From the NCBI RefSeq assembly GCF_002213415.1, contig NZ_NJGU01000016.1, positions 1 to 64,000 on the forward strand: DNA of 64,000 nt, read 5' to 3'. Shown here piece after piece: positions 181 through 40,424 of the stretch. Each line of letters opens with the position of its first letter. Within the stretch, counting starts at the first letter, position 1. Origin of the DNA: Herbaspirillum robiniae (lineage in GTDB: Bacteria; Pseudomonadota; Gammaproteobacteria; Burkholderiales; Burkholderiaceae_D). The notes under the pieces are model-generated. The model was not told the DNA's origin, did not search any database, and saw only the letters and a list, made by a program, of their open reading frames with translations. A program made the position numbers and the translations under genes.

Positions 181-686
181 CATCCCGGCGAACGCCGGGA
201 TCCAGTGTCGTTCGTCGCGCCTCCGAGAACTTCGTTCGGACTGAGTAGCCGCTTTGCGGCGTATCGAAGTCAGCGTGCATACGGTTGTTTGACGCTCGGG
301 TAGTCTGGTCTTGCTGCGTGCAGATGTACTGGCTCTGGTTCTATCTTTCTTCGGTCAGGAGGGAGCGCCGGGAGCGGCCCGGCAGCCGCTCACTTTTCTT
401 GCTCCGCCAAGAAAAGTAAGCAAAAGAAGGCGGCCGCTACCGCCCAGCCCCTTCGGGGTCCCCGCTGAACCGTGCGGAAAAATGGGAAAGGAGGCAAGTC
501 GCTACGCTCCGGCCTCCTTTCTGATCCATTTTTCCGCACGGTTCAGCGGCTGGGCAGAAGCGGACTTCCGATTCGGCTCGCCTGCGGCTTTGCCTTGTGT
601 CCGGCTCGCCTTCGGCCTCGCGGTGCTTGCTGCTCGCTGCTCACCTGCGGCATCGATTTCGTGGCTCGCTATCCAATGTAATCCGT
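181..686 (+). repeat. Composite hairpin repeat, copy A
   Basis: About 506 bp, non-coding. It opens with a palindromic REP-like box (ATCCCGGC, 4-nt loop, GCCGGGAT), followed by a TTCGATACGCCGC-type segment in complement. Next is an A/T-rich hairpin at about 391-420 (ACTTTTCTTG paired with CAAGAAAAGT). A large hairpin covers 441-557, with outer stem CGCCCAGCC/GGCTGGGC and inner arms CGCTGAACCGTGCGG and CCGCACGGTTCAGCG that pair perfectly. Then come alternating GGCTCGCCT-rich segments. Related copies lie at 39395 and 39891, and an inverted copy at about 817-1241. Open frames inside are judged spurious. Confidence 0.9.
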
Positions 687-723
687 CATCCCGGCGCAGG
701 CCGGGATCCAGCGTCGTTCGCGG
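687..723 (+). repeat. Isolated REP-like box of the hairpin repeat
   Basis: A lone copy of the leading module: ATCCCGGC and GCCGGGAT arms followed by ATCCAGCGTCGTTCG. The rest of the long element is absent here. It marks the end of copy A, as the same box marks the end of the tandem copies at 40387. Confidence 0.85.
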
Positions 724-816
724 CATCATCTCCATAGTTCGTTTTACGAAGCCGCCATCGCCGTCCCTCACACATCTCACACAATCGACGAGCAGAAGAT
801 TGCGAACACCCCTCCC

Positions 817-1241
817 CATCCCGATGCCGAAGGCGAGGCGGTTAAGTCTTCCCCTTGGGGGCCAGCCGGCGGGGCGCGGGGGAAAATGGATCAGAAAGGA
901 GGCCGGAGCGCAGCGACTTGCCTCCTTTCCCATTTTTCTCCGCGCTCTGTCGGGTACCCCTCCGCAGGAGGGGCTGGACCTTAGGGGCCGCCTTCTTTTG
1001 CTTACTTTTCTTGGCGGAGCAAGAAAAGTGAGCGGCTGCCGGGCCGCCCCCGGCGCTCCGTTTCGACCGAAGAAAGATAGATATAGAGCCAGTACATCGG
1101 CATGCAGCAAGACCAGACTACCCAAACGAAAACAACCGCATACACGCTGACTTCGATACGCCGCACAAGCGGCTACTCAGCCAGAACAGGGTTCAAAGAA
1201 GCACAACGAACGACACTGGATCCCGGCCTTCGCCGGGATGA
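817..1241 (-). repeat. Composite hairpin repeat, inverted copy
   Basis: A diverged copy in opposite orientation to copy A. In reverse it shows the same order: REP-like box at about 1216-1240, TTCGATACGCCGC segment, the ACTTTTCTTG/CAAGAAAAGT hairpin at about 1002-1031, then the large hairpin with AAAGGAGGC/GCCTCCTTT arms at about 880-955. The distal GGCTCGCCT portion has degenerated. With copy A it makes 181-1241 a nearly 1-kb imperfect inverted repeat. Confidence 0.85.
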
Positions 1242-1530
1242 CGGCGATGAAAGGAGCCAAGCGTGTATTGCGTAAGCACGTAAACAAGTAAGCGAATTGG
1301 CAAGCAGGCAGGCAGAAAACGGTGACGACGTGGAGCAGTAGTTCAAAACCCCAAATCAAACACCAACCAGCGCAAAGACAAAAGATCAAAACATTCAAAA
1401 ATGGAATACAACATAAGAACTTAAGTCATACAGCGACTTGACTCCCCTTCCTATACTCCCCCTGCCGACACCCGCCACGTCCGCCGGCCGCGGCGGCGGA
1501 ACCGGAATGACGCCGCCGCGGGGATAAACC
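1242..1530. other. Unique intergenic stretch before the FUSC gene
   Basis: About 290 bp between the inverted repeat copy and the FUSC gene. It has lower GC than its surroundings in 1260-1440 and probably carries the FUSC promoter. No convincing RNA gene or coding region was seen. Confidence 0.5.
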
Positions 1531-3705
1531 GTGCGGGTGCCGGCACCCTTCTTCTGCGCACCCTGTCCACCCGCCCATAGCATGCCGCCGCCGCTATCGA
1601 CCACCGGTCGTTCCGCTCTCCGTTTCCCATTTTCCTTGCGTCGTCTGCGCCTGTTGACCGAGCGCTGGCGCGCCCGTTTCCCGCTGCGCAACGCCAGCCT
1701 GTCGGAGGGCCTGCGCGCCGCCTGCGGGGCCAGCGCCATGCTGCTCCTGGGCGAGTGGCTGGGCAATCCGCTGTTCTCGTGGGCGGCCATCGGCGCCTTC
1801 CTGACCTGCCTGGCCGACAGCGCCGGTTCCAACCGCGCGCGGCTGGCTTCGATGGGGGGCTTCGCGCTGGCGTCCACGCTGGGCGGGATGCTGGCCGCGA
1901 GCGCCGCGGGGCTGGGCGTGGAGGCGGGTTTGCTGGCCATCATGGCCTGCGCCGGCGCGGCCGGATTTTCGCGCATCTATGGCGCCGCGGCCGGGCTGGT
2001 GCTGATGCTGGCGGCGGGCGTGTCGGCCATCATGGCCGATGCGCCGGTGGTGCTGTGGCCGTTTGCACACAGCCATGTGCTGGTCTATTTCGCGGGTTGC
2101 CTGTGGGCCATGCTGCTGGGGCTGACGGTGTGGCGCATCCATCCCTTCGCGCCGGCGCGCCAGGCGGTGGCGCGCGTCTACGGCACGCTGGCCGAGCTGG
2201 CGGCGGTGGCCGCGGACGGGCATGAGGGCGACGATGCGGCCCAGCTGGCGCATGCGGCCGAACTGGCGGCGCATACGCGTCGCCACGCCCGCTTCGACAT
2301 CGCCGCCGCGCGCCGCGCCCTGGATGCGGTGGCGGCCGAGCGCACCGAGTCGCGCCGGCTCTACGAAAACCTGCTGGTGCGCCTGGCGCGCGCCGGCGAT
2401 CTGCTCGACTGCATCACGGTGCTGGCCGACCTGCGGCTGACGCACTACCAGCAACACCAGGCGCGCCGCCGCACCACGCGCGTGCTGCAATCCATGTCGC
2501 AGCTGCTGCAAGGCATGCAGCGTGCCATGGCCAAAGGCGAGGACATCGCCGCGGCCGACGACGCCCGCATCATGCTGCGCCTGCGCCAGCTGGTGGCGCG
2601 CCTGCCCAGCGGCGCCGGCCGCGTGCTGCAGCTGGTGGAGGCGCCGCTGGCCGCCGGCGGCGACGCCGACGCCGACAATCCGGCCGGGCTCAAGCTGGCC
2701 GCCCGCGAAGCGCTGGCGCGGCCGCGCGGCATGCCGGCCCTGCTCCACCGGCTGCGCATGCTGTGGCGCAAGGGCGCGCTGCACGCCAACGCCGGCTCGG
2801 CCGAACTGCATCACGCCTGGCGCTGCGCCGCCGCCGCCGGCGTCACCTACCTCATCGTGCATCTGCTGGAACTGCCCTTCGGTTACTGGGCCACCATGGC
2901 GACCATGCTGGTGATGCAACCCACCATCGCCGACAGCTGGTCGCGCAGCATGGAGCGCGCCGTCGGCAGCGTGGTCGGCGGCGCGCTGGCCATCGCGCTG
3001 TGCCTGGTGGTGCATTCGCCGCTGGCGCTGGCGGTGCTGGTGTTTCCGCTGACGGTGCTGACCATGGCGCTGCGGCCGGTCAGCTATGGCTTGTACGCCA
3101 CCTTCCTGACGCCGGTGTTCGTGCTGGTGGCCGATGTCGCCACCGAACCCGCGCAGCAGCTGACCAATGCCGCGCTGCGTGCCGGCAACAACGTCATCGG
3201 CGCGGCGGTGGCGGTGGCCGCCAGTTATCTGTTCTGGCCGCGCCGCCAGCCGGCCGACGTCGGCGCGCAGTTGCTGCGCATGGTGCGGCTCAACCTCGCC
3301 TACCTGGCCGACGCGATCGGCGGCGAGCAGGCGCCGGCCGATGCCGCGCGCATGCATGCGCACCGGCGCGACGCCTGCGTGGCCAATGTCGAGGCGGGGT
3401 TGCTGCTGCAGAGATCGATGCGCGAGCGCAGCTTGAACGAGCGCCAGGCCGGCGCCGGGCGTACCGCCGTGGCGCTGTCGCGTCGCCTTGCCGCCGACGC
3501 CAGCCACCTGTGGGCGCATCCGCAGCCGGCCGCGCCGCAACTGGGCGAATGGATCGCGGGCATCGACGCCGCGCTGGCGGCGACCGACGCGCTCGCGCTG
3601 CGCGAACTGTTGCGCCAGCGCCCCGCGCCGATGCAGCTGGCCCAGGCCGATGCGGTGGAAACGCTGTGCCTGCTGGCCGCCGCCGTGATGCCCGCAGGCA
3701 AATAA
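1531..3705 (+). CDS. FUSC-family inner-membrane transporter
   Basis: A 724-residue membrane protein of the fusaric-acid-resistance/YccS-YhfK type. This family is proposed to export aromatic acids or related compounds across the inner membrane. Hydrophobic segments cluster in two blocks, about residues 65-215 and 430-570, separated by a long charged helical cytoplasmic region, and a soluble tail follows. This is the usual two-half FUSC layout, and the length fits YccS-like members. The GTG at 1531 has GGGGA seven bases upstream. An in-frame ATG at 1582 would shorten it by 17 residues, and the Pro-rich N-terminus makes that start plausible. An MscS channel follows 89 bp downstream and may be co-transcribed. 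The substrate is not visible from sequence. Confidence 0.85.
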   Translation: MRVPAPFFCAPCPPAHSMPPPLSTTGRSALRFPFSLRRLRLLTERWRARFPLRNASLSEGLRAACGASAMLLLGEWLGNPLFSWAAIGAFLTCLADSAGSNRARLASMGGFALASTLGGMLAASAAGLGVEAGLLAIMACAGAAGFSRIYGAAAGLVLMLAAGVSAIMADAPVVLWPFAHSHVLVYFAGCLWAMLLGLTVWRIHPFAPARQAVARVYGTLAELAAVAADGHEGDDAAQLAHAAELAAHTRRHARFDIAAARRALDAVAAERTESRRLYENLLVRLARAGDLLDCITVLADLRLTHYQQHQARRRTTRVLQSMSQLLQGMQRAMAKGEDIAAADDARIMLRLRQLVARLPSGAGRVLQLVEAPLAAGGDADADNPAGLKLAAREALARPRGMPALLHRLRMLWRKGALHANAGSAELHHAWRCAAAAGVTYLIVHLLELPFGYWATMATMLVMQPTIADSWSRSMERAVGSVVGGALAIALCLVVHSPLALAVLVFPLTVLTMALRPVSYGLYATFLTPVFVLVADVATEPAQQLTNAALRAGNNVIGAAVAVAASYLFWPRRQPADVGAQLLRMVRLNLAYLADAIGGEQAPADAARMHAHRRDACVANVEAGLLLQRSMRERSLNERQAGAGRTAVALSRRLAADASHLWAHPQPAAPQLGEWIAGIDAALAATDALALRELLRQRPAPMQLAQADAVETLCLLAAAVMPAGK

Positions 3706-3794
3706 GCGGAAACAAAATCCCCCTTCCCGGTTCGAACGCGGAAACGCCTTGCATCCACCACGATGCAACCGCGACAACCTATGGAAGGGAAGCG

Positions 3795-4922
3795 ATGACT
3801 CTGGACCTGGATTTTCTCTACAACATGAACGAGGGACCGTTGCGTTCCGGCCTCATCGTGCTGGGCGTGGCGCTGTTGTCGGTGGTGCTGGCCATCGTGA
3901 TCCACCGCGCCGGCACGGCGCTGATACGTCGTCTCGCGCGCGGCCATCCGTTCACCATCACCGCCACCGAAGTGGCCTACAACTCCGGGCGCACCTGCCT
4001 GATCCTGTTCCTGCTGCGCCTGGTGCTGACCGGCGCGCCCGACAACACGCCCGGACTGACCTCGATCTCCTACCTTACCTCGGTGGCGCTGATCCTGGCG
4101 CTGACCTGGTTCCTGATGCGCTGCGTGAAGTCGGTCAGCGTGGCCGTGGTCAAGCTCAATCCCTACGATGTGGCCGACAACCTGAGGGCGCGCCGCATCC
4201 TGACCCAGACCCGGGTGCTGTCGCGCAGCGCCTATTTCATCATCGCGCTGCTGGGCCTGTCCTTCGTGCTGCTCACTTTGCCGGGCGCGCGCCAGTTCGG
4301 CGCCAGCCTGCTGGCTTCGGCGGGCGTGGCCGGCATCGTCGCCGGTATCGCCGCCAAGCCGGTGCTGGGCAATTTCTTCGCCGGCCTGCAGATTGCGTTC
4401 TCGCAACCCATCCGCATCGACGATGTGCTGATCGTCAAGGGCGAGTGGGGGCGCGTGGAAGAGATCACCGGCACCTTCGTGGTAGTGAAGATCTGGGACG
4501 AGCGGCGCATGATCGTGCCCTTGCAGTGGTTCATCGAAAACCCCTTCGAGAACTGGACCCATACCTCGGCCACCATCCTGGGCACGGTGTTTCTGTGGCT
4601 GGATTATGCGGTGCCGGCCAGGGAAGTGCGCGCCGAGTTCGAGCGCGTCTGCAAGACCTTGCCGCTATGGGACAAGCGCGTGTGCGTGATGCATGTGACG
4701 GACGCCGACCAGCGCTGCATGCAGGTGCGGCTCTTGGTGTCGGCGGTCGACTCCGGCAGCGCCTTCGACCTGCGCTGCCAGATCCGCGAGCACATGATTT
4801 CCTTCATCGCGACGAATTATCCCCAGGCCTTGCCGCGCCTGCGCGCCGAAGTCACGCCGCGCAACGATCCCGATGCGCTGGAGCGCATCGTCGACGGTTC
4901 GCCCAGGGAGAGCCTGGGCTGA
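3795..4922 (+). CDS. Mechanosensitive ion channel, MscS family
   Basis: A 375-residue small-conductance mechanosensitive channel homologue. Such channels open on membrane tension and release solutes on osmotic downshift. Four or five hydrophobic helices occupy residues 15-190. The pore-lining helix is Ala/Gly-rich (LLASAGVAGIVAGIAAKPVL), followed by GNFFAGLQIAF, the conserved lead into the beta domain, and then the QPIRIDDVLIV segment typical of the MscS beta domain. The start ATG at 3795 follows GGAAGGGAAG. The frame is open far upstream, but that region is the antisense or shifted shadow of the FUSC gene. The C-terminus is soluble and mixed alpha/beta. No cyclic-nucleotide domain is present. 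Confidence 0.9.
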   Translation: MTLDLDFLYNMNEGPLRSGLIVLGVALLSVVLAIVIHRAGTALIRRLARGHPFTITATEVAYNSGRTCLILFLLRLVLTGAPDNTPGLTSISYLTSVALILALTWFLMRCVKSVSVAVVKLNPYDVADNLRARRILTQTRVLSRSAYFIIALLGLSFVLLTLPGARQFGASLLASAGVAGIVAGIAAKPVLGNFFAGLQIAFSQPIRIDDVLIVKGEWGRVEEITGTFVVVKIWDERRMIVPLQWFIENPFENWTHTSATILGTVFLWLDYAVPAREVRAEFERVCKTLPLWDKRVCVMHVTDADQRCMQVRLLVSAVDSGSAFDLRCQIREHMISFIATNYPQALPRLRAEVTPRNDPDALERIVDGSPRESLG

Positions 4923-5145
4923 CGGCGCGGAAAAGGGAAGGACAAAAACGCAAGGACAAAAAGGTAGGCGGGCCACACTACCGGCGACCGAGGGGAGAGA
5001 CTGTCGCTTTCATGGGGCCCGCCTGGGGAGAGCTTGGCGCGCCGGGATCTCCGGCGCCCTGTCGGCAAGCGGCGCTGGTGGCGCCGGTGCCGGGTACTGC
5101 GTGAACTGCGTTGCTACCGATGCATCGCGGCCGTGCCGCCGATGA

Positions 5146-5544
5146 TTACAGCGCGTTGCTGTTGCTGACGGCCTGGCCTTGCGAACGGGCTTGTTGCAGC
5201 TCGTCCTTCACTTGCTGGCGGGTCAGGGTCGACTGGAAAGGCTTGTCGGCCGGATATTGGTCGGTGACCAGGATTTCGCCGTTGGCGCGGGCTTCCTTGA
5301 GCTCGGCGACCACGTCGGCGCGGGTCTTGGTCGATGTCACGGCCTTGTCGGCGGGATAGCGGTCGGTGACGAGGATCTCGCCGCTGGCGCGGGCTTGTTG
5401 CAGTTCCGCGATCACTTCAGCGCGCGACTTGGTCGACACGATCTGGGTTTCGGCGGGATACGGTGCTTCAGCCATGGCGGCGCCGACGGCGGTGGTCAAC
5501 AGAAGGCCTGCAAACAGGTTCTTGGCAATGTTCTTGGTGTTCAT
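5146..5544 (-). CDS. Secreted DUF4148 protein with three tandem repeats
   Basis: A 132-residue periplasmic protein of unknown role, in a family common and expanded in Burkholderiales. A signal peptide spans residues 1-25, with cleavage expected after AMA. The mature part is three 34-residue repeats (29-62, 63-96, 97-132), each starting YPA and containing a TR.(E/D)V...EL..AR core. The repeats are strongly similar, so internal duplication is evident. Most family members carry one or two such units. It is transcribed alone, convergent with the MscS gene. Function cannot be given. Confidence 0.85.
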   Translation of the reverse strand: MNTKNIAKNLFAGLLLTTAVGAAMAEAPYPAETQIVSTKSRAEVIAELQQARASGEILVTDRYPADKAVTSTKTRADVVAELKEARANGEILVTDQYPADKPFQSTLTRQQVKDELQQARSQGQAVSNSNAL

Positions 5545-6028
5545 GATCGTTTCCTTGTGAGAGATAGGATGTGCGATTCAGCCCGGCCCGACACTTGTGG
5601 ATCAGTCGCTTTTCGCTTTCATCGTGAAACCAAGTTTAGGGATCGCGAGCGCCAAGAAAAAGGCTCAAAACCGGAATACATAATTCCCAATTCCAGAACA
5701 ATCAGTTTTTTCGTACAGCATGGATGGGATCCGCCATGTTGTCGCATGTGGTGGCTGGGGCGTTCAATTTCAATGGTTAGAATCTAGAATCGGCCGAAAA
5801 GCCTTGTAAATAAAGGATGTTGCAAAATAGGAAACGCGACATTTCTTGTACTGGGTGAAAGATTTTTGAGATGACGCAATGCGGAAACTATCGCCCTGAT
5901 ACAGAATTTCAATGAACTTGTTCAATGGATTTGAGCAAGTTCCTCAGGTGTTCGTTGTATACGTTAAGATATAGCGAAAACACCACCCTCGCCCTTCGCG
6001 CATCCCTACTCCACAGGCCGCCACCATC
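5545..6028. other. AT-richer divergent intergenic region
   Basis: About 480 bp between the DUF4148 and glutamine amidotransferase genes, clearly lower in GC than the genes. It must hold both promoters. An inverted repeat, GAACTTGTTC at 5914-5923 and GAGCAAGTTC at 5933-5942 (one mismatch, 9-bp spacer), lies 87 bp before the amidotransferase start and is a possible operator. No coding region was supported. Confidence 0.55.
5914..5942. promoter_or_regulatory. Inverted repeat upstream of the amidotransferase gene
   Basis: The arms GAACTTGTTC and GAGCAAGTTC pair at 9 of 10 positions around a 9-bp spacer in the AT-rich leader. No T-run follows, so an operator is more likely than a terminator. No regulator gene is adjacent. 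Confidence 0.35.
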
Positions 6029-6769
6029 ATGAAAACCGCCCTCGCCCTCCGCCACGTCGCCTTCGAAGACCTGGGCCAGCTCGCGCCGCTGCTCAAGAAG
6101 AGCGGCTACCAGGTCAGCTACTTCGATGTCGGGGTCGACTCCTTCGCCAACATCTCGCCGCTGGACGCGGACCTGGTCATCGTGCTGGGCGGCCCGATCG
6201 CGGTCTACGACACCGCCGAATACCCCTACCTGCGCGCCGAGATCGCCTGGCTGCGCGCGCGCCTGCTGGAGGATTTGCCGACGCTGGGGATTTGCCTGGG
6301 CGCGCAGCTGATGGCCGCGGCGCTGCATGCGCGCGTCTATCCCGGCACGTCCGGCAAGGAGATCGGCTGGAGCCCGCTGAGTCCGGCCGAGCATACGGAC
6401 GAGCTGCCCTGGTTCAGCCAGCTGGTCGGGCAGGATACGCGGGTGCTGCACTGGCACGGCGACACCTTCGACCTGCCGGAGGGGGCGCGCCACCTGGCGT
6501 CGTCCGCGCTGTATCCGAACCAGGCCTTCGCCTGGGGCGAGAACTGCCTGGCGCTGCAGTTCCATCCGGAATTCGACGTGCGCATGGTGGAGCGCTGGCT
6601 GATCGGCCACGCGCACGAGATCGCGCATACGCGCAACATCAGCCTGGCCAGCCTGCGCGCCGACGCCGAGCAATACGGCCGCTCTTTCGAGGCCGCCTCT
6701 CAGCATTTCTGGCAGGGCTGGCTGCGCAGCCTGAACGGGGAACGGGAAGGATTGCGGCGCACCGCCTGA
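6029..6769 (+). CDS. Class I glutamine amidotransferase-like protein
   Basis: A 246-residue stand-alone glutamine amidotransferase domain of the GMP-synthase-like group (COG0518 style). These enzymes hydrolyse glutamine through a Cys-His-Glu triad. The nucleophile elbow GICLGAQ places Cys89, and FHPEF gives His179 and Glu181, so the triad is complete. VLGGP near residue 53 is the oxyanion-side motif. No synthetase domain is attached and no partner is adjacent. Such proteins may act on gamma-glutamyl compounds or be amidotransferases of unknown acceptor. It is transcribed alone from the AT-rich region upstream. Confidence 0.85.
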   Translation: MKTALALRHVAFEDLGQLAPLLKKSGYQVSYFDVGVDSFANISPLDADLVIVLGGPIAVYDTAEYPYLRAEIAWLRARLLEDLPTLGICLGAQLMAAALHARVYPGTSGKEIGWSPLSPAEHTDELPWFSQLVGQDTRVLHWHGDTFDLPEGARHLASSALYPNQAFAWGENCLALQFHPEFDVRMVERWLIGHAHEIAHTRNISLASLRADAEQYGRSFEAASQHFWQGWLRSLNGEREGLRRTA

Positions 6770-6802
6770 GGTTACCCAGGCCGCGCGCCGCGCAGGAAGG
6801 GA

Positions 6803-8428
6803 TCAGGCGGAAGGCGTCAACTGCAGCGGCTGCGGGGTGATGTCGCGTTCGCGGCGCGTGCCGCCGGCCTCGACCAGCTGCGAACCCAGGCTGAACTTGC
6901 GGCCGGCCTCGGCCAGCTTCTGCGCCTGGCCGCGCAGCATGTCGGAGGTGGCCGTGGCCTGCTCCACCAGCGCCGCGTTCTGCTGGGTGGCGTCGTCGAT
7001 CTCGGTGACGGCGCGGCTGATCTGCTCGATGCCCGAACTCTGTTCGCGGCTGGCCACCGAGATCTCGCCCATGATGTCGGTCACGCGCTTGATGCTCTCG
7101 ACCACGTCGCCCATGGTGGCGCCGGCTTCGTTGACCAGCTTGCTGCCGGCGTCGACCTTGCCCACCGAGTCGTCGATCAGCTGCTTGATCTCCTTGGCCG
7201 CCGCCGCCGAGCGTTGCGCCAGCGAACGCACCTCCGAGGCCACCACCGCGAAGCCGCGGCCCTGCTCGCCCGCACGCGCCGCTTCCACGGCGGCGTTCAA
7301 CGCCAGGATGTTGGTCTGGAAGGCGATGCCGTCGATCACGCTGATGATGTCCACGATCTTGTTGGACGAGTGGTTGATCTCGTTCATCGTCTGCACCACC
7401 TGCGACACCACCCCGCTGCCCTTCTTGGCCACGTCGGAGGCATCCATCGCCAGCTGGTTGGCCTGCTGGGCGTTCTCGGCGTTCTGCTTGACGGTGGAGG
7501 TCAGCTCCTCGATCGAGGCCGCGGTCTCTTCCAGCGAACCGGCCTGCTGCTCGGTGCGCGAGGAGAGGTCGAAATTGCCGGAGGCGATCTCGCCGGCGGC
7601 GGTAGTGATCGACTCGGTGCCGACCTGCACTTCGCTGACGATGGCGCGCAGCGAATCGTTCATCTCCCGCAATGCGCCCATCAGTTCGGCGATCTCGTCA
7701 CGGCCCTTCTGCTCGATGCGCGCCGACAGGTCGCCGGCGGCCACCATCCTGGCCACGTCCAGCGCCCGCTTCAGCGGCGTGGTGATGCTGCGCGAGATGA
7801 TCACCACCGCCACCGCGCCGATGGCCACCAGCAGGATGCCCAGCACGATCATCAGCTGGATGCTGCGCTGGCTGCTGGCGTCGATGTCGGTGGCCAGCTT
7901 GTCGATGGCCTTGCGCTGCATGGCCAGCAGGTTGTTTACCTGCGCGCCGTAGGCTTTGGCCGCCGGGTCGAAGACCTCGACATAGGCCTTCTCCGAAGCG
8001 GCGGCGTCGCCGCTCTTGCGCGTGTTCATTACCAGCTCCTTGGCGGCCTGGTACTTCTTGCGCGCTTCGATGATGACGGCCATCAGCGCCTTCTCTTCAT
8101 CCGAGGACAGCAGCGGCTCGATCTTCTTGATGATCGCGCTGCCGCTCTTGACGCTCTGCTCGATGTCGTCCTTGAAGGTGTTGGACAGCTCGCCGTCGCT
8201 GCTGCGCGCGATCATCGAGGTGCGCACCACCGCCGAATAGGTCAGCACGAACCAGTCAGCCACCAGCCTCTCCTTGGCCAGCGGCACCTCCATCATCTGC
8301 CGCGTGGCATCAGCGTTGCGCCGGGCGTCGTACAGCGCCATCGACGTGGACAGGACGGCCAGCACCAGAACGAGGGCGAAGCCGAAGGTCAGGCGGTTGG
8401 AGATCCGCATGTTGGAAAGGATGTTCAT
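6803..8428 (-). CDS. Methyl-accepting chemotaxis protein (Tsr/Tar-like)
   Basis: A 541-residue transmembrane chemoreceptor. TM1 is at about 13-32, followed by a periplasmic four-helix-bundle region of about 155 residues. TM2 is at about 190-212, then a HAMP domain and a long signalling coiled coil. The hairpin tip reads [14 protein letters not shown] then [15 protein letters not shown], matching the E. coli receptor consensus. The C-terminal [17 protein letters not shown] is the common methylation-helix stretch. No NWETF-like tether for CheR/CheB is present. The ligand is unknown. It is monocistronic. Confidence 0.93.
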
Positions 8429-9663: not shown

Positions 9664-9829
9664 GCCTGCCCTTCCCTGTAGTGACGATCTTGGCTGGGCG
9701 GATTGTCGCGCCATGTCGCCGTGTCGATTGGAGAATCTGATTCTACAGCGCGGCGAAAAAGCACCGCCACCGGCGCCCTGTATTCCTTTATAGACTGGCC
9801 TCCCCTTCATCCCTACAAGGAGTCCGTCG

Positions 9830-32427: not shown

Positions 32428-32494
32428 GCGCCCGCCCGATCCATTTCCTGTTGCACCTGTCGCCGGGGCGCCTTCCATTGGTTGGCGCCCCGCA

Positions 32495-33124: not shown

Positions 33125-33288
33125 GCGATGAACGAGGGTGGGGATGGCGCAGCATACCGCAGCGATGCGCCGGTATTGTCGGCGCGACCTGCATATTGCG
33201 TGTGGGAACCTCGCCGGGCGCCGGCGTTCCATCCGAAGATCGGGCAACATCATTCAATTCCAGTCAATCCCAGTCATCAGGAGTCGCC

Positions 33289-33858
33289 ATGCCCCGTGCC
33301 GCCAGATTGCCGTCCCGCCAGGATTTCCCGGTGCACCAGGTCCGCCGTTACCTGGAGCCCGGCCCCATCGTGCTGGTGTCCTCCGCCTATCGCCGCCAGC
33401 GCAACATCATGACCATGGGGTGGCACTGCATGATGGAGTTCGCTCCCTCGTTGCTGGGCTGCGTCATTTCCTCCGGCAACCACAGCTTCGAGCTCATCCG
33501 CAAAAGCCGCGAGTGCGTGATCAACCTGCCGACAGCCGCGCTGATCGACCAGGTGGTGGGCATCGGCAACTGCTCCGGCGCCGAGGGCGACAAGTTCGAG
33601 CGCTTCGGCCTGACCGCCTTGCCGGCGCAGCAGGTCGGCGCGCCGCTGATCGGCGAATGCCACGCCAGTTTCGAATGTCGCCTGCACGACGGCAGGCTGG
33701 TCGGCAAGTACAACTACTTCATCTTCGAAGTGGTGCAGGCGCATGTGGCGCGTACGCCGAAAAATCCGCAGACGCTGCACTACAAGGGCAACGGCGAGTT
33801 CATGCTGGCCGGCGAGGTGGTCAGCCGGCGCGCGAAGTTCCACCGCGAATATCTCTGA
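33289..33858 (+). CDS. Flavin reductase-like FMN-binding protein
   Basis: A 189-residue member of the flavin reductase/DIM6-NTAB family, a split-barrel FMN-binding fold. Conserved elements are PIVLVSSAYRRQRNIMTMGWHCMMEF (the isoalloxazine-side strand pair), RECVINLPTAALIDQVVGIG, and HASFECRLHDGRLVGKYNYFIFEVVQA. It may reduce flavin with NAD(P)H for a partner monooxygenase or act on its own substrate. The start at 33289 follows CAGGAG. Its stop lies three bases from that of the convergent LysR gene. No partner is adjacent. Confidence 0.85.
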   Translation: MPRAARLPSRQDFPVHQVRRYLEPGPIVLVSSAYRRQRNIMTMGWHCMMEFAPSLLGCVISSGNHSFELIRKSRECVINLPTAALIDQVVGIGNCSGAEGDKFERFGLTALPAQQVGAPLIGECHASFECRLHDGRLVGKYNYFIFEVVQAHVARTPKNPQTLHYKGNGEFMLAGEVVSRRAKFHREYL

Positions 33859-33861
33859 TTG

Positions 33862-34767
33862 CTAGGGCTGCAGCGCCAGCACGAAGTCGAGGAAGGCGCG
33901 CACCTTGGCCGGCGGATGATGGCGCGAGGGATAGAGCGCATACAGCGGGAAGCGCTCGTCCGGCCAGTCCGGGAACAGGTCCACCAGGCGGCCGTCGTCC
34001 AGCATGGGCTGCAGCCCGAGGTCGAACACCTGCGCCACGCCGTAGCCCGACAGGCACACGCTGTAGAGCGAGCCGCCGTCGTTGACGGTGAGCTGGCCGT
34101 CCATCTCCAGCTCGATGCGCTTGCGGCCGCGGATGAATTCCCAGGTGAAGGGGCGGCCGGTGCGCGAGTCGCGAAACAGGATGCAGGTATGCCCCGGCGT
34201 CTGCAGCTCCTGCGGCGTGGCCGGACGGCCGTGGCGCTTGAGGTAGCCGGGAGCCGCGATGGTGACGATGCGGCAGTCGGCCAGCTTGCGCGCCACCAGC
34301 GTGGAGGCCGGCGGCTGGCCGAAACGCAGCGCCAGGTCATAACCGTCGGCCACCATGTCGCCCAGCTCGTCGCGCATGATCAGTTCCAGCTTCAGCTCCG
34401 GGTGGGCCGCCAGGAAGTCGCCCAGGCGCGGCGCCAGCACCATGCGCGAGAAGAACGGGTCGACGTTGACCCGCAGCCGCCCGCGCACCGTGCCGCGCCC
34501 CTCCTGCGCCGAGGACGCGGCCTCCTCCAGCGCCGCCAGCAGCGGCGCCACCTGGGCGTGGAAGCGCCGTCCCTCGTCGGTCAGCGTGATGGAGCGCGTG
34601 GTGCGGTCGAACAGGCGGATGCCCAGCCGCGCCTCCAGTCGCGCCACCGCCCGGCTCACGCCCGAGGGCGTCATGTCCAGCAGTTCGGAGGCGGCCGCGA
34701 AGCTGCCGCTGTCGACGATCGCGCACAGCACGCTGATGCCGTTCATCATGCGTTCGTCAAAGGCCAT
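33862..34767 (-). CDS. LysR-family regulator of the divergent NmrA-type gene
   Basis: A 301-residue LysR-type regulator in the CrgA/DmlR-like subgroup. The helix-turn-helix spans residues 1-60 (FAAASELLDMTPSGVSRAVARLEARLG), the wing TRSITLTDEG follows, and the effector domain continues to the end. The start at 34767 matches family N-termini. The intergenic region to the divergent NAD(P)-binding protein holds the inverted repeat TTGATGAT/ATCATCAA. This pair, a LysR with an NmrA-type reductase, is common in proteobacteria. Confidence 0.9.
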   Translation of the reverse strand: MAFDERMMNGISVLCAIVDSGSFAAASELLDMTPSGVSRAVARLEARLGIRLFDRTTRSITLTDEGRRFHAQVAPLLAALEEAASSAQEGRGTVRGRLRVNVDPFFSRMVLAPRLGDFLAAHPELKLELIMRDELGDMVADGYDLALRFGQPPASTLVARKLADCRIVTIAAPGYLKRHGRPATPQELQTPGHTCILFRDSRTGRPFTWEFIRGRKRIELEMDGQLTVNDGGSLYSVCLSGYGVAQVFDLGLQPMLDDGRLVDLFPDWPDERFPLYALYPSRHHPPAKVRAFLDFVLALQP

Positions 34768-34788
34768 GGTGTTTTTCCTTGCGGTGGA

Positions 34789-34809
34789 TTGATGATGAAT
34801 GATCATCAA
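34789..34809. promoter_or_regulatory. Inverted repeat, candidate LysR operator
   Basis: TTGATGAT (34789-34796) and ATCATCAA (34802-34809) pair perfectly around a 5-bp spacer, 22 bp upstream of the LysR start and about 100 bp upstream of the NmrA-type gene. Confidence 0.5.
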
Positions 34810-34909
34810 TGAAGTGACGTCGATGATATCGCAAAAGCAGTCGCCGACGCCCAGAATGCGCTCCATGCCTGCCCGCCGGGCAGCCTTCACACACGACAAG
34901 GAGCGCAAC

Positions 34910-35782
34910 ATGTATGCAATCACGGGAATCACAGGACAAGTCGGCGGCACGCTGGCCCGCAGCCTTCTGGCCGCCGGCCGCGACGTGCGCGCGGTGGTGC
35001 GCGACGCCGCCAAGGGGGAATCATGGGCGCGCCAGGGCGCCGAGGTGGCGCTGGCCGAGCTGACCGATGTGCCGGCCATGATCCGCGCCTTCTCCGGCGC
35101 CGACGGGGTGTTCATCCTGCTGCCGCCGGCCTTCGATCCCATGCCGGGCTTTCCGGCGGCGCGCCGCATCATCGCCGCCGTGCGCGAGGCGCTGGAGATG
35201 GCGGGCCCGAAAAAGGTGGTGGCGCTGTCGACCATCGGCGCCGATGCCGAGCAGCCCAACCTGCTGAACCAGCTGCGCATCATGGAACAGCAGTTCGCCA
35301 CGCTGGAGATGCCGGTCACCTTCCTGCGCGCCGGCTGGTTCATGGAAAATTCGCGCTGGGATATCGACGCCGCCCGCGCCGGCGCCATCGCCAGCTATCT
35401 GCAGCCGGCCTCGCGCGCCATCGCCATGGTGTCTACCGCCGACGTCGGCCGCACCGCCGCCGCGCTGCTGCAGGAGGACTGGAACGGGCGCCGCGTGGTG
35501 CAGCTGGAAGGGCCGCAGCGCACCAGCCCGGACGACATCGCCGCCGCCTTCGGTCGCCTGCTGGGCCGCGCGGTGGAAGTCGACGTCGTGCCGCGCGTCG
35601 AATGGGAAGGCATCTTCCGCGCCCAGGGCATGGAAAACCCCTTGCCGCGCATGCAGATGGTGGACGGCTTCAATGCCGGCTGGATCGACTTCGCCCACGG
35701 CGGCCGCGATTCGCGCCGCGGCAGCGTCGGCATCGAGGCGGCGCTGCGCGCGATGCTGGAGGAGCAGGCCGGTACCGTGTGA
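34910..35782 (+). CDS. NmrA/QOR2-like NAD(P)-binding protein
   Basis: A 290-residue atypical short-chain dehydrogenase of the NmrA/QorB group. The Rossmann motif ITGITGQVGGTLARSLL lies at residues 4-20, followed by VRAVVRDA for the cofactor ribose. FILLPPAF is a conserved strand end. TFLRAGWFMEN is the family's central block. Such proteins act as quinone or aldehyde reductases or as redox sensors. The ATG at 34910 follows AAGGAGCG. It is divergent from its likely LysR regulator. Confidence 0.88.
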   Translation: MYAITGITGQVGGTLARSLLAAGRDVRAVVRDAAKGESWARQGAEVALAELTDVPAMIRAFSGADGVFILLPPAFDPMPGFPAARRIIAAVREALEMAGPKKVVALSTIGADAEQPNLLNQLRIMEQQFATLEMPVTFLRAGWFMENSRWDIDAARAGAIASYLQPASRAIAMVSTADVGRTAAALLQEDWNGRRVVQLEGPQRTSPDDIAAAFGRLLGRAVEVDVVPRVEWEGIFRAQGMENPLPRMQMVDGFNAGWIDFAHGGRDSRRGSVGIEAALRAMLEEQAGTV

Positions 35783-35807
35783 TGCCGGCTGCGGCCACGA
35801 GGGAGGT

Positions 35808-36737
35808 TCAGCCGCCGCGCTCGCCGTTGGCGCGGTCGGCGATCTCGTTCCACAGGTGCTGGGCCACATAGGCGCGATAGGGCGCCCAGGCCAGGCTGCG
35901 CTGTTTCTGCTGGGCGGGCTTGACCAGCGCAGCATCGCGCGCGGCGATGGCCTGCATCAGCACCAGGTCGGTGGCCGGCCAGCCGTCCGGGTCGCGCCAG
36001 GCGCGCATGGCGACATACTCCACCGTCCATGGGCCGATGCCGGGCTGGGCCAGCAGCGTCTGGCGCAGCTGCGCCAGTTGTTCCTGTGAATAGGGCTGGC
36101 CGGGTGGGTCGATCACGGCGGCGCCTTCGGCCACCGCGCGCGCCAGGCCCTGCAGCGCCGCCACCCGTTTGCCGGGCATGCCGATGCTGGAGAGATCGGC
36201 GTCGGCCAGCGCCGCCGGCGTGGGAAAGCGCCATGCCGTCAGCGCATGTCCATGATCGGGGATGTGCTGGCCGGCGCGCTGCACCACGCGGCCCATGATG
36301 GTGGTGGCGGCCTTGACGCTGACCTGCTGGCCGATGATGGTGCGCACCACCAGTTCGAACGCCGACCAGGCGCCGGGTACACGCAATCCCGGCGCGGCCT
36401 TGAGCAGGGGCTTGAGCCACGGGTCGGCGCCCAGCGCCTTCTTCACCGCGGCGGGATCGGCCTGCAGGTCGAACATGCGCGACAGCGGAGCGGCCAGCGC
36501 GTCGGCGTGGCGGCTGACCTTGCCGGCCAGGGTCGCCACCAGGCAATGCTTGGCCGCATCGAGCGTGACGGCCAGCGTGCCGGCGTCGCCTTCCCATTCG
36601 ATGGCCCGCAGATAGGCGCCGTTTTCCACCGCCTCCACGCCGATGGTGGCGCGGCCGTTGAAGAAACGCAGCATGCGCGGCCAGTCGAAAGGCGGCCGGT
36701 AGGGCAGGTGGAGGACGGCGATCGCGGGCTTGGGCAT
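35808..36737 (-). CDS. DNA-3-methyladenine glycosylase II (AlkA-like)
   Basis: A 309-residue helix-hairpin-helix DNA glycosylase removing alkylated purines. An AlkA-type N-terminal domain covers about 1-110, then the GIIGQQVS-like motif reads RTIIGQQVSVKAA. The HhH motif LAQPGIGPWT is at 229-238, and the catalytic Asp257 is in WPATDLVLMQA. It is divergent from the alkyltransferase gene at 36812, so the two share a short promoter region and form a base-repair pair. No Ada domain is fused. Confidence 0.9.
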   Translation of the reverse strand: MPKPAIAVLHLPYRPPFDWPRMLRFFNGRATIGVEAVENGAYLRAIEWEGDAGTLAVTLDAAKHCLVATLAGKVSRHADALAAPLSRMFDLQADPAAVKKALGADPWLKPLLKAAPGLRVPGAWSAFELVVRTIIGQQVSVKAATTIMGRVVQRAGQHIPDHGHALTAWRFPTPAALADADLSSIGMPGKRVAALQGLARAVAEGAAVIDPPGQPYSQEQLAQLRQTLLAQPGIGPWTVEYVAMRAWRDPDGWPATDLVLMQAIAARDAALVKPAQQKQRSLAWAPYRAYVAQHLWNEIADRANGERGG

Positions 36738-36811
36738 GCGGCATCATAGCGCAGCGCGTAGCGTGTCGCATTCCGCAGTAGAATCGACGGTCTTGAAGCA
36801 CGGAGACCGCA

Positions 36812-37384
36812 ATGGATTACGCATACAAGCTCATCGACTCGCCCGTTGGGCAACTGACGCTGGTGGCCAGGGGCGACAAGCTGGCCGCGATCCTGTGGGA
36901 GAACGACCGTGCCGGCCGCGTGCGCCTGGGCGAGATGACGCCGGACGAGCAGCGCCCGGTGCTGCTGGCCGCCGCCGGCCAGCTGGAAGAATATTTCGCC
37001 GGCAAGCGCACCGGCTTCGACGTGCCGCTCAGCTTCGATGGCACCGATTTCCAGAAGCAGGTGTGGGCTGCGCTGCTCACCATTCCTTACGGCCAGACCC
37101 GCACCTACCTGCAGATCGCCCGCCAGCTCGGCAACGAGAAGGCGGTGCGCGCCGTGGGCGCGGCCAACGGCCGCAACCCGATTTCCATCATCGCGCCCTG
37201 CCACCGCGTGATCGGCGCCGGCGGCGAACTCACCGGGTTTGCCGGCGGCCTGCATGCCAAGAAACTGCTGCTGGCCATCGAAGGCATTTCCACCGAAGGA
37301 CGCGACGCCGGCGACACCATCGACCCGCGCCGCAAGGCCCAGCATCGTCGCCGGGAAGATCCCAACCAGTTGTCCCTGCTGTAA
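36812..37384 (+). CDS. ogt: O6-alkylguanine-DNA alkyltransferase
   Basis: A 190-residue suicide alkyltransferase. The acceptor Cys130 is in APCHRVIG, preceded by the DNA-binding helix with Arg in PYGQTRTYLQIARQLG and AVGAANGRNP. The N-terminal domain is short. The basic C-terminal tail is longer than in E. coli Ogt. The start follows CGGAG. It is divergent from the AlkA-like glycosylase gene, an alkylation-repair cluster. Confidence 0.93.
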   Translation: MDYAYKLIDSPVGQLTLVARGDKLAAILWENDRAGRVRLGEMTPDEQRPVLLAAAGQLEEYFAGKRTGFDVPLSFDGTDFQKQVWAALLTIPYGQTRTYLQIARQLGNEKAVRAVGAANGRNPISIIAPCHRVIGAGGELTGFAGGLHAKKLLLAIEGISTEGRDAGDTIDPRRKAQHRRREDPNQLSLL

Positions 37385-37442
37385 GTCCCGCACCGGATCC
37401 CTGCGTCCGGTCATGCCATTTCCGCCCTTACGGAGAGCCGCC

Positions 37443-37685
37443 ATGGAACAGCCCGCCAACGCATTTTCCGACCCGTTGCACGCGCAGGTCGGCGCCTTGC
37501 GCTATCTCGTGCTGATGATGCTGCAGCGGCTCGACGCCGACGGCTACGCCAGCATCGCCGAGATCACCGCGGGCGTGAAGGGCGACCGCGCCCATCTCGA
37601 TCCCGGCCTGCCCGACCACGCCCTGATCGACGCCACCTTCCGCGAGACCCTGGCCATCCTCGAGCTGGCCGCGCACAAGCACTGA
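37443..37685 (+). CDS. Small hypothetical protein after ogt
   Basis: An 80-residue protein with no recognised domain. It is helical, with ALRYLVLMMLQRLDADGYASIAEI and ATFRETLAILELAAHKH. No signal or membrane segment is convincing. The ATG at 37443 follows CGGAG with good spacing and lies 58 bp after the ogt stop, so it is likely in the same transcript. The role is unknown. Confidence 0.7.
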   Translation: MEQPANAFSDPLHAQVGALRYLVLMMLQRLDADGYASIAEITAGVKGDRAHLDPGLPDHALIDATFRETLAILELAAHKH

Positions 37686-37758
37686 GGCCTTGCGCGCCAG
37701 GCGAGAAAAACGGCAGCGGGCGCAGCCGGCTGCCGTTATCGTCGCTTGCGGCTTGCGC

Positions 37759-38397
37759 TCAGGCCGCCTTCAGGAACTCCGGTCCGAAATCCAGCAACAC
37801 GTCGCGCACCAGCGAGGCGGTGCTCTGGCAACCGAGCTTGTCCTTGATGCTGGCGCGATGCACGTCCACCGTCTTGACGCTGATATTGAGTTCGCGCGCG
37901 ATCAGCTTGCTGGAGTGCCCCAGGATCACCTTGTCCAGGATCTCGCGCTCGCGCGCGGTCAGCGTTTTCAGGCGCGCCTTGAGCAGTAGGCGGCGTTCGC
38001 GCGCCTGCATGTTTCCGGCCACGTTCTTGAGCGTCACCTGGATGCGCTCCAGCATCTGCTGCGAGTTGTAGGGCTTCTCGAAGAAATCCACCGCGCCGTT
38101 TTGCAGCGCCCGCACCGACATCGGGATGTCGCCGTGGCCGGAGACGAAGATCACCGGAATGCCGGCGCCGATCTCGTTCAAGCGCTCCTGCAGCTGGAAG
38201 CCGCTGACCTCGGGCATGCGCACATCGAGGATCAGGCAGGACAGGCTGTTGGCGTCGTAGGCCCTGAGGAAGGCCTCGGGGCCGTCGAAGCATTCGGTGC
38301 GGATGTTGACCGAGCTCAGGAGCCAGGCCAGCGATGTGCGGACGGCCTCATCGTCGTCGACGATATAGACCACGGGCAGGTTGGAGTCCATCATCAT
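37759..38397 (-). CDS. FixJ-type response regulator
   Basis: A 212-residue two-component regulator. The receiver domain (8-125) holds the acidic pair DDD (14-16), phosphoacceptor Asp58 in ILDVRMPEVSG, and Lys108 in FFEKPY. A linker helix leads to a LuxR/NarL helix-turn-helix (145-205) with LTAREREILDKVILG and KLIARELNISVKTVDVHRASIKDKLG. The FixJ/TodT/StyR group regulates aromatic and respiratory genes. No kinase is adjacent; the nearest candidate is the two-PAS kinase at 47344-48861, about 9 kb away in the same catabolic locus. A perfect palindrome at 38572 lies 175 bp upstream. Confidence 0.92.
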   Translation of the reverse strand: MMMDSNLPVVYIVDDDEAVRTSLAWLLSSVNIRTECFDGPEAFLRAYDANSLSCLILDVRMPEVSGFQLQERLNEIGAGIPVIFVSGHGDIPMSVRALQNGAVDFFEKPYNSQQMLERIQVTLKNVAGNMQARERRLLLKARLKTLTAREREILDKVILGHSSKLIARELNISVKTVDVHRASIKDKLGCQSTASLVRDVLLDFGPEFLKAA

Positions 38398-38715
38398 TCC
38401 TCGTCAGAAAGCCGGCGCACCGGCAGGTGGCATCCCGGCCGCCGCCGTCGCGGCTGGCACAGGTTGGCGCGGCATGCCTTGATCCATGCAAAAAGCAGGC
38501 CCGATATGGCACCCGCCGCGCATCGCACCGCGCGCACCGACATGCCGCAGCATGCGCCCCGCACCGGATCACGGCCTAGGTATTTCTACCTAGGCCGCCT
38601 GCGGGAATCCCCCGAAACAGGGCATGCGGCACGAATTGTGGGCGGCCTGCGCCTGCCTTAATCTGGTGACATCGACAACGCCGCGCATCATCGGCGTGCA
38701 AACCAGGGAGTCACC
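38398..38715. other. Divergent regulatory region of regulator and flavin reductase
   Basis: About 318 bp between the response regulator and the flavin reductase genes. It contains the perfect palindrome at 38572-38597. No coding region or RNA gene is supported. Confidence 0.6.
38572..38597. promoter_or_regulatory. Perfect 11-bp-arm palindrome
   Basis: CGGCCTAGGTA (38572-38582) and TACCTAGGCCG (38587-38597) flank a TTTC spacer. It lies 118 bp before the flavin reductase start and 174 bp before the response regulator start. No T-run follows, so an operator is favoured. The left half recurs in diverged form at 50643-50655, before the IacA-like gene. Confidence 0.7.
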
Positions 38716-39267
38716 ATGAGCGCCAACGGCGTCAGCAGTCAACACAACCCGGCGGCCAGGCCGCCGCTCACCCAGCAGCAGATCGCGTTTCGCAACGCCA
38801 TGGCGCACCTGCCGGCGGCGGTCTCGGTCATCACCACCAACGGCCCGGGCGGGCGCTGCGGCATCACCGCCAGCGCGGTGTGTTCGGTGACCGATTCGCC
38901 GCCGACGGTGCTGGTGTGTATCAACCGCGGCAGCGCCATGCATGGGGTGTTCCGCAAGAACGCGCGGCTGTGCGTGAACGTGCTGTCGGATGAGCAGGAG
39001 CAGCTGGCCATGCATTTCTCCGGGGCCACCGGGGTGCCGATGGAGGAGCGCTTTTCCTGGGATATCTGGCGGCACGACGGCGCGCTGGAGCAGCCGGTGC
39101 TGGCCGATGCGCTGGTGACGCTGGAGGGGCGGATCCTGGAGTTCAAGGAGGTCGGGTCGCATTCGGTGATGTTTGTGGAGCTGGGTGAGGTGCGGGTCAA
39201 TGAGCGCAAGGACAGTCTGATTTATTTCAATCGCTTGTTTCATAAGGTCAAGAGGACGGCGATTTGA
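38716..39267 (+). CDS. iacG: Flavin reductase, IacG/HpaC-like
   Basis: A 183-residue flavin:NADH reductase of the HpaC type, supplying reduced flavin to a two-component monooxygenase. Family blocks are FRNAMAHLPAAVSVITTNGPGGRCGITASAVCSV, PPTVLVCINRGSAMHGVFRKN and LCVNVLSDEQEQLAMHFSG. The partner would be the IacA-like flavin monooxygenase at 50770; the pairing is inferred, since the two lie 11.5 kb apart. It is divergent from the FixJ-type regulator with a perfect palindrome between, so it may be its target. Two tandem hairpin repeats lie downstream. The iac name rests on locus content; an HpaC-like role elsewhere is possible. Confidence 0.72.
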   Translation: MSANGVSSQHNPAARPPLTQQQIAFRNAMAHLPAAVSVITTNGPGGRCGITASAVCSVTDSPPTVLVCINRGSAMHGVFRKNARLCVNVLSDEQEQLAMHFSGATGVPMEERFSWDIWRHDGALEQPVLADALVTLEGRILEFKEVGSHSVMFVELGEVRVNERKDSLIYFNRLFHKVKRTAI

Positions 39268-39394
39268 CGGGGGCTGTTTTTTCTATGGGGTCTTTTGTTG
39301 TTTTCGTGGCGGGGGGATGGGCGCGATGAGGGGACTTGTGTTGCGATGATGGGCATTTCATCGGGTGCGTGACTCGCTATCTTGCCTTCTCCGT

Positions 39395-39890
39395 CATCCC
39401 GGCGAAGGCCGGGATCCAGCGTCGTTCGTCGCGCCTCCGAGAACTCCGTTCGGACTGAGTAGCCGCGTATGCGGTGTATCGAAGTCGGCGTATATGCGGT
39501 TGGTCTTCGGGGTAGTCTGCTCTTGCTACATGCCGATGTACTGGCTCTATGCCTATCTTTCTCCGGTCGCAGGGGAGCGCCGGGGCGGCCCGGCAGCCGC
39601 TCACTTTCTTTGCTCCGCCAAAGAAAGTAAGCAAAGAAAGGCGGCCGCTACCGCCCAGCCCCTTCGGGGTACCCGCTGAACCGCACGGAAAAATGGGAAA
39701 GGAGGCAAGTCGCTACGCTCCGGCCTCCTTTCTGATCCATTTTTCCGCGCGGTTCAGCGGCTGGGCAGAAGCGGACTTCATTGACGGCTCGCCTGCGGCT
39801 TTGCCTTGTGTCCGGCTCGCCTTCGGCCTCGCGGTGCTTGCTGCTCGCCTGCGGCATCGATTCCGTGGCTCGCTATCCAATGTAAACCGT
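39395..39890 (+). repeat. Composite hairpin repeat, copy B
   Basis: 496 bp from one REP-like box to the next. It has the same modules as copy A: REP-like box, TTCGATACACCGC-type segment in complement, the A/T-rich hairpin at about 39600-39631 (ACTTTCTTTG with CAAAGAAAGT), the large hairpin at 39651-39767, and the GGCTCGCCT-rich end. Two base pairs in the first hairpin differ from copy A on both arms, so pairing is kept. It is directly followed by copy C. Confidence 0.93.
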
Positions 39891-40386
39891 CATCCCGGCG
39901 CAGGCCGGGATCCAGTGTCGTTCGTTGCGCTTCTCCGAATTCCGTTCGGGCTGAGTAGCCGCGCATGCGGCGTATCGAAGTCAGCGTATATGCGGTTGTT
40001 CTTCGGGGTAGTCTGGTCTTGCTGGATGCCGATGTACTGGCTCTATGCCTATCTTTCTCCGGTCGGAAGGGAGCGCCGGGGGCGGCCCGGCAGCCGCTCA
40101 CTTTCTTTGCTCCGCCAAAGAAAGTAAGCAAAGAAAGGCGGCCGCTACTGCCCAGCCCCTTCGGGGTGCCCGCTGAACCGCACGGGAAAATGGGAAAGGA
40201 GGCAAGTCGCTGCGCTCCGGCCTCCTTTCTGATCCATTTTTCCGCGCGGTTCAGCAGCTGGGCAGAAGCGGACTTCCGATTCGGCTCGCCTGCGGCTTTG
40301 CCTTGTGTCCGGCTCGCCTTCGGCCTCGCGGTGCTTGCTGCTCGCCTGCGGCATCGATTCCGTGGCTCGCTATCCAATGTAATCCG
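39891..40386 (+). repeat. Composite hairpin repeat, copy C
   Basis: 496 bp, the same length as copy B and in tandem with it, very similar throughout with scattered substitutions. The large hairpin covers 40148-40265, here with outer stem CTGCCCAG/CTGGGCAG. The tandem head-to-tail pair, each bounded by the REP-like box, indicates duplication of a whole unit. Confidence 0.93.
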
Positions 40387-40424
40387 TCATCCCGGCGAAG
40401 GCCGGGATCCAGCGTCGTTCGTTG
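40387..40424 (+). repeat. Terminal REP-like box of the tandem pair
   Basis: A fresh CATCCCGGCG box with GAAGGCCGGGATCCAGCG following, then divergent sequence. It closes the tandem array on the right and shows that the unit boundary is this box. The IacF-like gene ends about 100 bp further right. Confidence 0.88.

Follow-up and report, generated by a model that had tools for sequence, protein, structure and literature searches.

A dispersed non-coding repeat of Herbaspirillum with a conserved strand-specific fold and a triplex-coded pseudoknot

Repeats whose single strand may fold into an intrastrand triplex have been described in bacteria since 2000. According to Holder et al. (2015; PMC4666352), PIT elements, BoxC and TMECO are intergenic, multi-copy sequences composed of three consecutive segments that follow a triplex code, and the pyrimidine type, class IV, occurs in RNA too. 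The repeat analysed here, about 500 bp long, shares these features; four long copies of it lie in a stretch of 64,000 nucleotides of Herbaspirillum robiniae (assembly GCF_002213415.1, contig NZ_NJGU01000016.1, positions 1 to 64,000), hereafter the window. In the scheme of the same paper the + strand of the element is assigned to class II and its - strand to class IV. TMECO differs in being G/C-rich, of class II and 37 nt long, whereas the motif of the element is A/T-rich, and the TMECO consensus, CCCTCNCCC..GGGNGAGGG..GGGNGAGGG, does not fit the modules of the element when these are compared by eye. Other differences from PIT and TMECO are the location of the motif inside an H-type pseudoknot, its inclusion in a covarying fold of approximately 300 nt, and its replication polarity. 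The main text of PMC4666352, which was not searched for Herbaspirillum, names neither Lysobacter, Xanthomonas or Stenotrophomonas nor a GCTTA linker, and the portions of it used here contain no compensatory third-strand change. In the present element third strand and duplex change in step, in several haplotypes and in many genera, within a pseudoknot, on a defined strand and in copies polarised by replication, and the function of natural bacterial triplex repeats becomes a directly testable question; moreover, a class of structured repeats would be added for which Rfam gave no match, either in the window or at 16 further loci.

In the pseudoknot of telomerase RNA the strands follow the order S1a-L1-S2a-S1b-S2b, and L1, rich in pyrimidines, lies where it can enter the deep groove of an A-U rich S2. 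Telomerase RNA and the SAM-V and guanidine-III riboswitches have the same strand order and the same pyrimidine-rich L1 as the element; they are RNA genes or riboswitches, whereas the element is a dispersed repeat with no partner gene identified. As regards its flank, the repetitive extragenic palindrome (REP) box of the copies resembles the CGTC-tagged REPs, for which the relevant sections of PMC3733652 report no dedicated transposase, in the CGTC tag, a stem starting with AT, a 4-nt loop and a CCA tail; in the element, however, the REP box is only an optional flank. The IS200/IS605 HUH and REP/RAYT systems, as treated in the corresponding sections of PMC6006769, share with the element structured single-strand ends and a link to replication, and differ from it in that no transposase was found within the element or next to those copies that were examined, the RAYT locus itself being devoid of the repeat.

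The strongest result is the conservation, in this element, of a strand-specific and RNA-like fold that includes a triplex-coded pseudoknot. The four copies noticed in a first-pass annotation of the window were recovered with the 496-bp unit of copy C as query, with matches at 181-685 (+), 875-1240 (-), 39395-39889 (+) and 39891-40386 (+). Copy A (181..686, +, the folded strand being -) is of full length and matches copy C with 662 bits and 89% identity, while the inverted copy (804..1241, -), whose profile match spans 804-1135 and which therefore covers about 804-1241 overall, forms with copy A a head-out pair, that is, + then -. Copy B (39395..39890, +) and copy C (39891..40386, +) are the first and second units of a tandem repeat recognised both in the genome search and by tandem-repeat analysis (39391-40428; period 497 bp, 2.1 copies, 94% matches).

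The annotation had also pointed to two base pairs of the A/T-rich hairpin that change in both arms between copies, and these double changes are real: copy A and the inverted copy have TTTTCTT/AAGAAAA (haplotype A), and the tandem copies TTTCTTT/AAAGAAA (haplotype B). Read on the reverse strand, the hairpin follows a pyrimidine tract that runs parallel to its purine arm, a T corresponding to each A and a C to each G (the pyrimidine-motif code), and the changes in this tract match the two double changes between haplotypes. The hairpin is stem 2 (S2) of an H-type pseudoknot; the tract (L1) separates CGCC from this stem, whose loop begins with GGCG, giving the consensus order S1a CGCC - L1 UUCUUUU - S2a GCUUACUUUUCUU - S1b GGCG - S2b AAGAAAAGURAG. 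In copy C the triplex pseudoknot occupies 40097..40140 (-; S1a CGCC, third strand UUUCUUU, S2a CUUACUUUCUUU, S1b GGCG, S2b AAAGAAAGUGAG; covariation helices 7 and 8), and its core is located at 39603..39639 (-) in copy B, 392..428 (-) in copy A and 993..1029 (+) in the inverted copy. Formation of a major-groove triple helix in this pseudoknot is predicted.

Taking into account that some loci from L319 onwards were fetched at motif positions, the test of the third-strand code was restricted to loci L001-L129, not chosen by motif. The 37 distinct modules of the genus found there fit the code at 257 of 258 positions, 36 of them perfectly, which none of 2000 permutations equalled. For motif-chosen loci of other genomes the figures are 712 of 716 positions in 95 modules (0/2000 permutations). 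The scan behind these figures, which gave 989 of 995 positions over 135 modules, retained a module only if it had both a pyrimidine tract and a hairpin. When the pyrimidine tract is not required, 146 of 149 copies match throughout and 3 have one mismatch, with 6 of 155 unparsed. Furthermore, the 106 pattern matches in seven complete congeneric genomes all belong to two self-consistent haplotypes, out of the 64 combinations allowed by the six open positions. The pairing stems also vary in a coordinated manner: 6 of the 12 S2 pairs change on both sides among the 35 copies used for the structure described below (helix 8), and stem 1 (S1) has, across beta- and gammaproteobacteria, a mean of 3.26 bp in 31 distinct S1a/S1b pairs against 2.1 after permutation (0/5000), reaching at least 3 bp in 21 of these pairs and staying below in 10. 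Variants of S1 changed in both strands include CCCGC/GCGGC, GCGGC/GCCGC, CCTGC/GCAGG, TCGGC/GCCGA and GGTGC/GCACC, among others.

Beyond the pseudoknot, an alignment of 146 distinct copies, kept from 279 profile matches after score and length limits and the removal of overlaps and duplicates, bears out the suggestion that the fold and not only the sequence is kept, both arms changing together. A structure of 73 pairs, fitted in reverse orientation to 35 copies, contains 96.0% standard pairs, a percentage favoured by the derivation of the structure from the same 35 copies; 44 of the 73 pairs change on both sides, with 338 double-change cells. Covariation is present, with a score of 0.382 against 0.138 in shuffled alignments (0/500 as high), and falls to 0.061-0.104 when the partner is slid by 1-3 columns. 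Double changes and shuffles, counted over related sequences, are stronger evidence than the paired percentage. The structure comprises a large hairpin with an outer stem and a CCCC-GAA-GGGG hairpin (40142..40271, -; helices 1-6) and a second pseudoknot, CGGC-UGCCGG-GCCG plus a downstream CCGGC (40075..40096, -; helices 9 and 10). In the first stem of the latter, 2 of 4 pairs change on both sides in the 35 copies, and its second helix is invariant within the genus and reads GUCGG/CCGAC, by eye, in some other Burkholderiales. At L068:2468-2791 a small hairpin, CAGAAGCAGTGCTTCTG, replaces one stem of this second pseudoknot, and L033, L053 and L063 carry similar GAAGCACTGCTTC inserts.

A wobble pair on one strand shows up as an A-C mismatch on the opposite strand. 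In the large stem, on the strand on which the element was first read, A-C and G-T mismatch cells are in a ratio of 59:2 in 48 representatives, 26:0 in 16 more diverse copies and 140:8 in all 146 copies, and this excess of A-C, equivalent to G.U on the reverse strand, indicates that the reverse strand folds. Likewise, the A/T hairpin has at its base a C-A mismatch (136/146 copies) that corresponds to a G-U pair on the reverse strand. Thus, judging from the sequences, the folded strand is most likely the reverse of the one first read, either as RNA or as single-stranded DNA, and the drawing in the first-pass annotation has to be turned over to the other strand. A purine-motif triplex on the strand first read was rejected as the main form on account of the mismatch count and the class IV order.

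In its own genome (G000; 5.53 Mb, 31 contigs) the 496-bp unit gives 108 matches, 36 of them longer than 180 bp; among the 72 shorter ones, 51 begin at the REP end, 16 are the large hairpin against its own reverse and 5 are other pieces. Nor is the element absent elsewhere, 37 of 61 genomes giving a match (own included): 30 of 33 congeners, 1 of 3 genomes of the family and 5 of 24 of the order, with the reservation that some weak matches among relatives may be the REP end only. No element match was obtained in three of the 33 same-genus genomes, G024, G027 and G028, the last only 63% complete. Locus L312, from Herbaspirillum sp. SJZ106, shows 100% identity across 4501 bases to L094 of the same-genus genome G021, and the Herbaspirillum loci L223, L267 and L280 also match other loci of the genus, which agrees with the assignment of the window to Herbaspirillum. 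Many sites are common to different species, with differences in copy number or orientation; for example, the own locus L117 corresponds to L082 of G015 and L092 of G021, and L122 to the second pair in L060-L067, where two pairs are separated by 13-16 kb. In the latter stretches the head-out pairs flank one syntenic block in Herbaspirillum genomes, both pairs being complete in 5 of 8 stretches (L060-L064), while in 3 one half is missing or lies outside the stretch. The copies of the own genome are often nearer to each other than to their ortholog (in 10 of 13 comparisons the ortholog is more distant than half or more of the 19 other own loci), showing partial concerted evolution among them.

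The arrangement of the copies is also constrained. Among 68 clusters, all 35 two-copy clusters of mixed orientation are head-out (+ then - in the orientation first read), one more cluster is ++-, and none is -+; a second set, from which loci below 58% G+C were left out together with clusters having no gene call on either side, yields 9 head-out pairs out of 9. Lone copies and single-orientation clusters nearly always follow the direction of replication. In seven complete genomes, where dnaA was placed in all and a dif-like site in five, the orientation first read runs with fork movement in 32 of 33 single-orientation clusters (15 in G015, 7 in G005, 4 each in G031 and G029, and one each in G019, G020 and G025), including 15 of 15 in G015 alone. 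As no pattern-found cluster of G015 lies between 1.57 and 3.35 Mb, the exact position of its terminus matters little; for G031 a terminus near 2-3 Mb was assumed, on the basis of position and of a weak skew. This polarity is not accounted for by gene direction, which was rejected as the determinant of orientation for lone copies, since their flanking genes run in all ways (++, --, +-, -+). The tandem pair of the window fits the polarity if synteny holds, its site in G020 being on the right replichore and the same strand.

The triplex pattern appears in at least 119 stretches, with occurrences in Burkholderia, Paraburkholderia, Caballeronia, Ralstonia, Variovorax, Polaromonas, Herminiimonas, Undibacterium, Collimonas, Neisseria, Pseudomonas and Stutzerimonas, among others. 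Loci L130-L318 were found by a pattern fixing 16 of the 20 motif positions, and because of this choice only the open positions, arm lengths, S1 and neighbouring copies test the code there. With even sampling of the class the exact pattern is rare (3 of 369 genomes, own included). Other Oxalobacteraceae keep more of the core, and elsewhere shorter pieces are found. The motif of Clostridia and Negativicutes follows the third-strand code, but no more than 2 of their 16 distinct S1a/S1b pairs reach 3 bp or more, although the mean S1 of 1.5 still exceeds the 0.83 of permutation (1/5000). In some Clostridia a triplex-coded tract and hairpin adjoin, by eye, apparent 5S rRNA (L237, L273) and tRNA (L232) genes. 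In seven distinct viral modules 53 of 53 positions agree with the code (15/2000 on permutation), and the viral contigs L146, L149, L158, L162, L166 and L180 (IMG/VR) contain a mirror-symmetric TTTTTCTTTTGCTTACTTTTCTTTTTA tract without a hairpin. A known RNA family was rejected, since at gathering score Rfam gave no match either in the window or in the 16 further loci; 20 sub-threshold matches were mostly to microRNA hairpins, and also to Pseudomon-Rho, LPR69 and P6. The searches of open-access full text listed no description of the element, motif strings retrieving one unrelated paper, and a paper on Herbaspirillum sRNAs gave no lead.

The first-pass annotation had listed a mobile element, a structured RNA and a nucleoid or replication site without choosing among them; the composite family, the fold and its non-coding character stand, the strand does not, and the annotation had overlooked the third strand and both pseudoknots, as well as the head-out arrangement of pairs and the polarity relative to replication. 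We propose a non-autonomous, dispersed, non-coding element that would spread at replication forks through its folded reverse strand, a reading to which we give an even chance. The active form would be the folded reverse strand, as RNA or single-stranded DNA, which would be copied into new intergenic sites at forks by an enzyme supplied from elsewhere, and copies at old sites in the own genome would then be homogenised. Copying at forks would explain why lone copies share their orientation relative to the fork. The folded strand would thus be the intermediate of spreading, and an outside enzyme would carry the element. More tentatively, and rather improbably, the element may represent a class of non-coding mobile elements present in many proteobacteria, spreading at forks by a folded RNA or single-stranded DNA copy that a telomerase-type triplex pseudoknot protects and a separate enzyme carries.

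Mobility is suggested by the tandem site of the window, flanked by a flavin reductase gene and a 2Fe-2S oxidoreductase gene. Fourteen congeneric stretches were fetched, four of which end at contig ends and were excluded, and in the 10 readable ones the core is absent between these two genes, the gap being 87-775 bases in eight and holding about 2 kb of other sequence in two. The site is thus lineage-specific, as a mobile element would have it, and no carrier enzyme was found. No Y1 transposase was found in the four window-copy open reading frames (ORFs) or beside the examined copies, and the genome has one Y1 match; with regard to a MITE, no inverted repeat joining the ends of the tandem unit was listed.

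Several observations weigh against spreading at forks. The sole RAYT of the own genome has neither REP box nor core in the surrounding 6 kb, for which reason mobilisation of the core by RAYT was rejected; a phage or plasmid vector was equally discarded, no phage record matching and 5 plasmid records matching short parts, at most 25% of the query. No target duplication is readable, the flanks of core-free sites being too diverged, and at lone sites the folding strand differs from the lagging-strand template (the strand first read) targeted by IS200/IS605. Many sites are old and shared between species, which equally fits a resident functional element, and 3 of the 13 comparisons place the ortholog nearer than the majority of own copies. 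As to polarity, there is one exception (L336, + in G029, 2.7 kb from a three-copy cluster of opposite orientation), a doubtful dif match of G031 at 1.10 Mb would, if real, make two more, the dif pattern has no match in G015 and G029 (5 of 7 genomes matched) and the skew is weak, and clusters at orthologous sites of different genomes are not independent. Within the fold, mismatches of the inner stem are nearly balanced (29:22 in the 48 representatives) and S1 shows no double change inside the genus (35 copies, helix 7).

The age of the shared sites, with folds intact across species, also suits a resident RNA at gene ends, whose reverse-strand fold would terminate or insulate read-through between often convergent genes, a head-out pair of the RNA-form element meeting read-through from either side. 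Divergent gaps are avoided, 7 of 58 clusters being flanked -+ while 10 of the 32 intergenic gaps in the window are of this kind, and convergent gaps hold 26 of 58 clusters against 7 of 32 in the window, although these counts come from a simple codon-model gene caller and a one-window background, with orthologous sites counted repeatedly and 10 further clusters lacking a called gene on one side. Yet the orientation of lone copies tracks replication while their flanking genes run ++, --, +- or -+, and the folded strand of some lone copies runs antisense to the gene on each side; we regard this function as possible but unlikely. The replication polarity of single-orientation clusters would in turn agree with a site acting at the DNA level, where single-stranded DNA folded into an intrastrand triplex or hairpin would stall forks or recruit a protein in a single direction, and E. 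coli intrastrand triplex repeats have been linked to instability (PMC4666352). The covarying fold, the two pseudoknots and the strand-specific mismatches nevertheless exceed the needs of a DNA triplex, both orientations coexist in pairs, and the parts of that paper drawn on report no in vivo footprint for the E. coli motif; we consider such a site quite improbable. Finally, tandem arrays and within-genome homogenisation are what neutral local duplication of palindromic DNA, its likeness kept by gene conversion only, would leave, but compensatory changes across species, the third-strand code and the presence of the module in distant genera with different flanks strongly disfavour this explanation, which we hold to be very improbable.

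With regard to the composition of the unit, the order of modules described in the annotation (REP-like box, TTCGATAC segment, A/T-rich hairpin, large hairpin, GGCTCGCC-rich end) was found again, the REP box and the TTCGATAC segment being optional rather than constant parts. The part shared genus-wide corresponds to about positions 116-440 of the unit, a core of approximately 300 bp with approximate ends. In most matches listed for congeners the core alone is shared, most of these matches starting downstream of the REP box, and G015 shares nearly the whole unit; since it is mostly the core alone that is common to congeners, the REP box and the TTCGATAC palindrome behave as separate repeats that often precede the core. 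In copy C the REP box (39888..39914, +) looks CGTC-tagged by comparison with the REP types set out in PMC3733652; other boxes start near 178, 683, 39392 and 40384, and another ends the inverted copy near 1244. The palindrome CCGTTCGG-CTGAGTAG..TATCGAAG (39941..39982, +) is likewise optional; in L380, L385, L387 and L389, from the gap orthologous to window 39268-40524, it occurs without the core, often as inverted pairs. Sequence comparison shows that the GGCTCGCC-rich end (40283..40386, +) differs among copies. A coding explanation was rejected, as had been anticipated: none of the four ORFs through the element has a Pfam match above cut-off, one giving a sub-threshold match.

At the beginning of the window (1-178) a 9-bp satellite, CATCTCCAA, with 19.8 copies and 96% matches, runs straight into copy A at its REP box. 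The REP edge, CCGTCATC, is similar to the final units of the satellite, CATCTCCGT, and in L020 a CCTT repeat occupies the place corresponding to this satellite.

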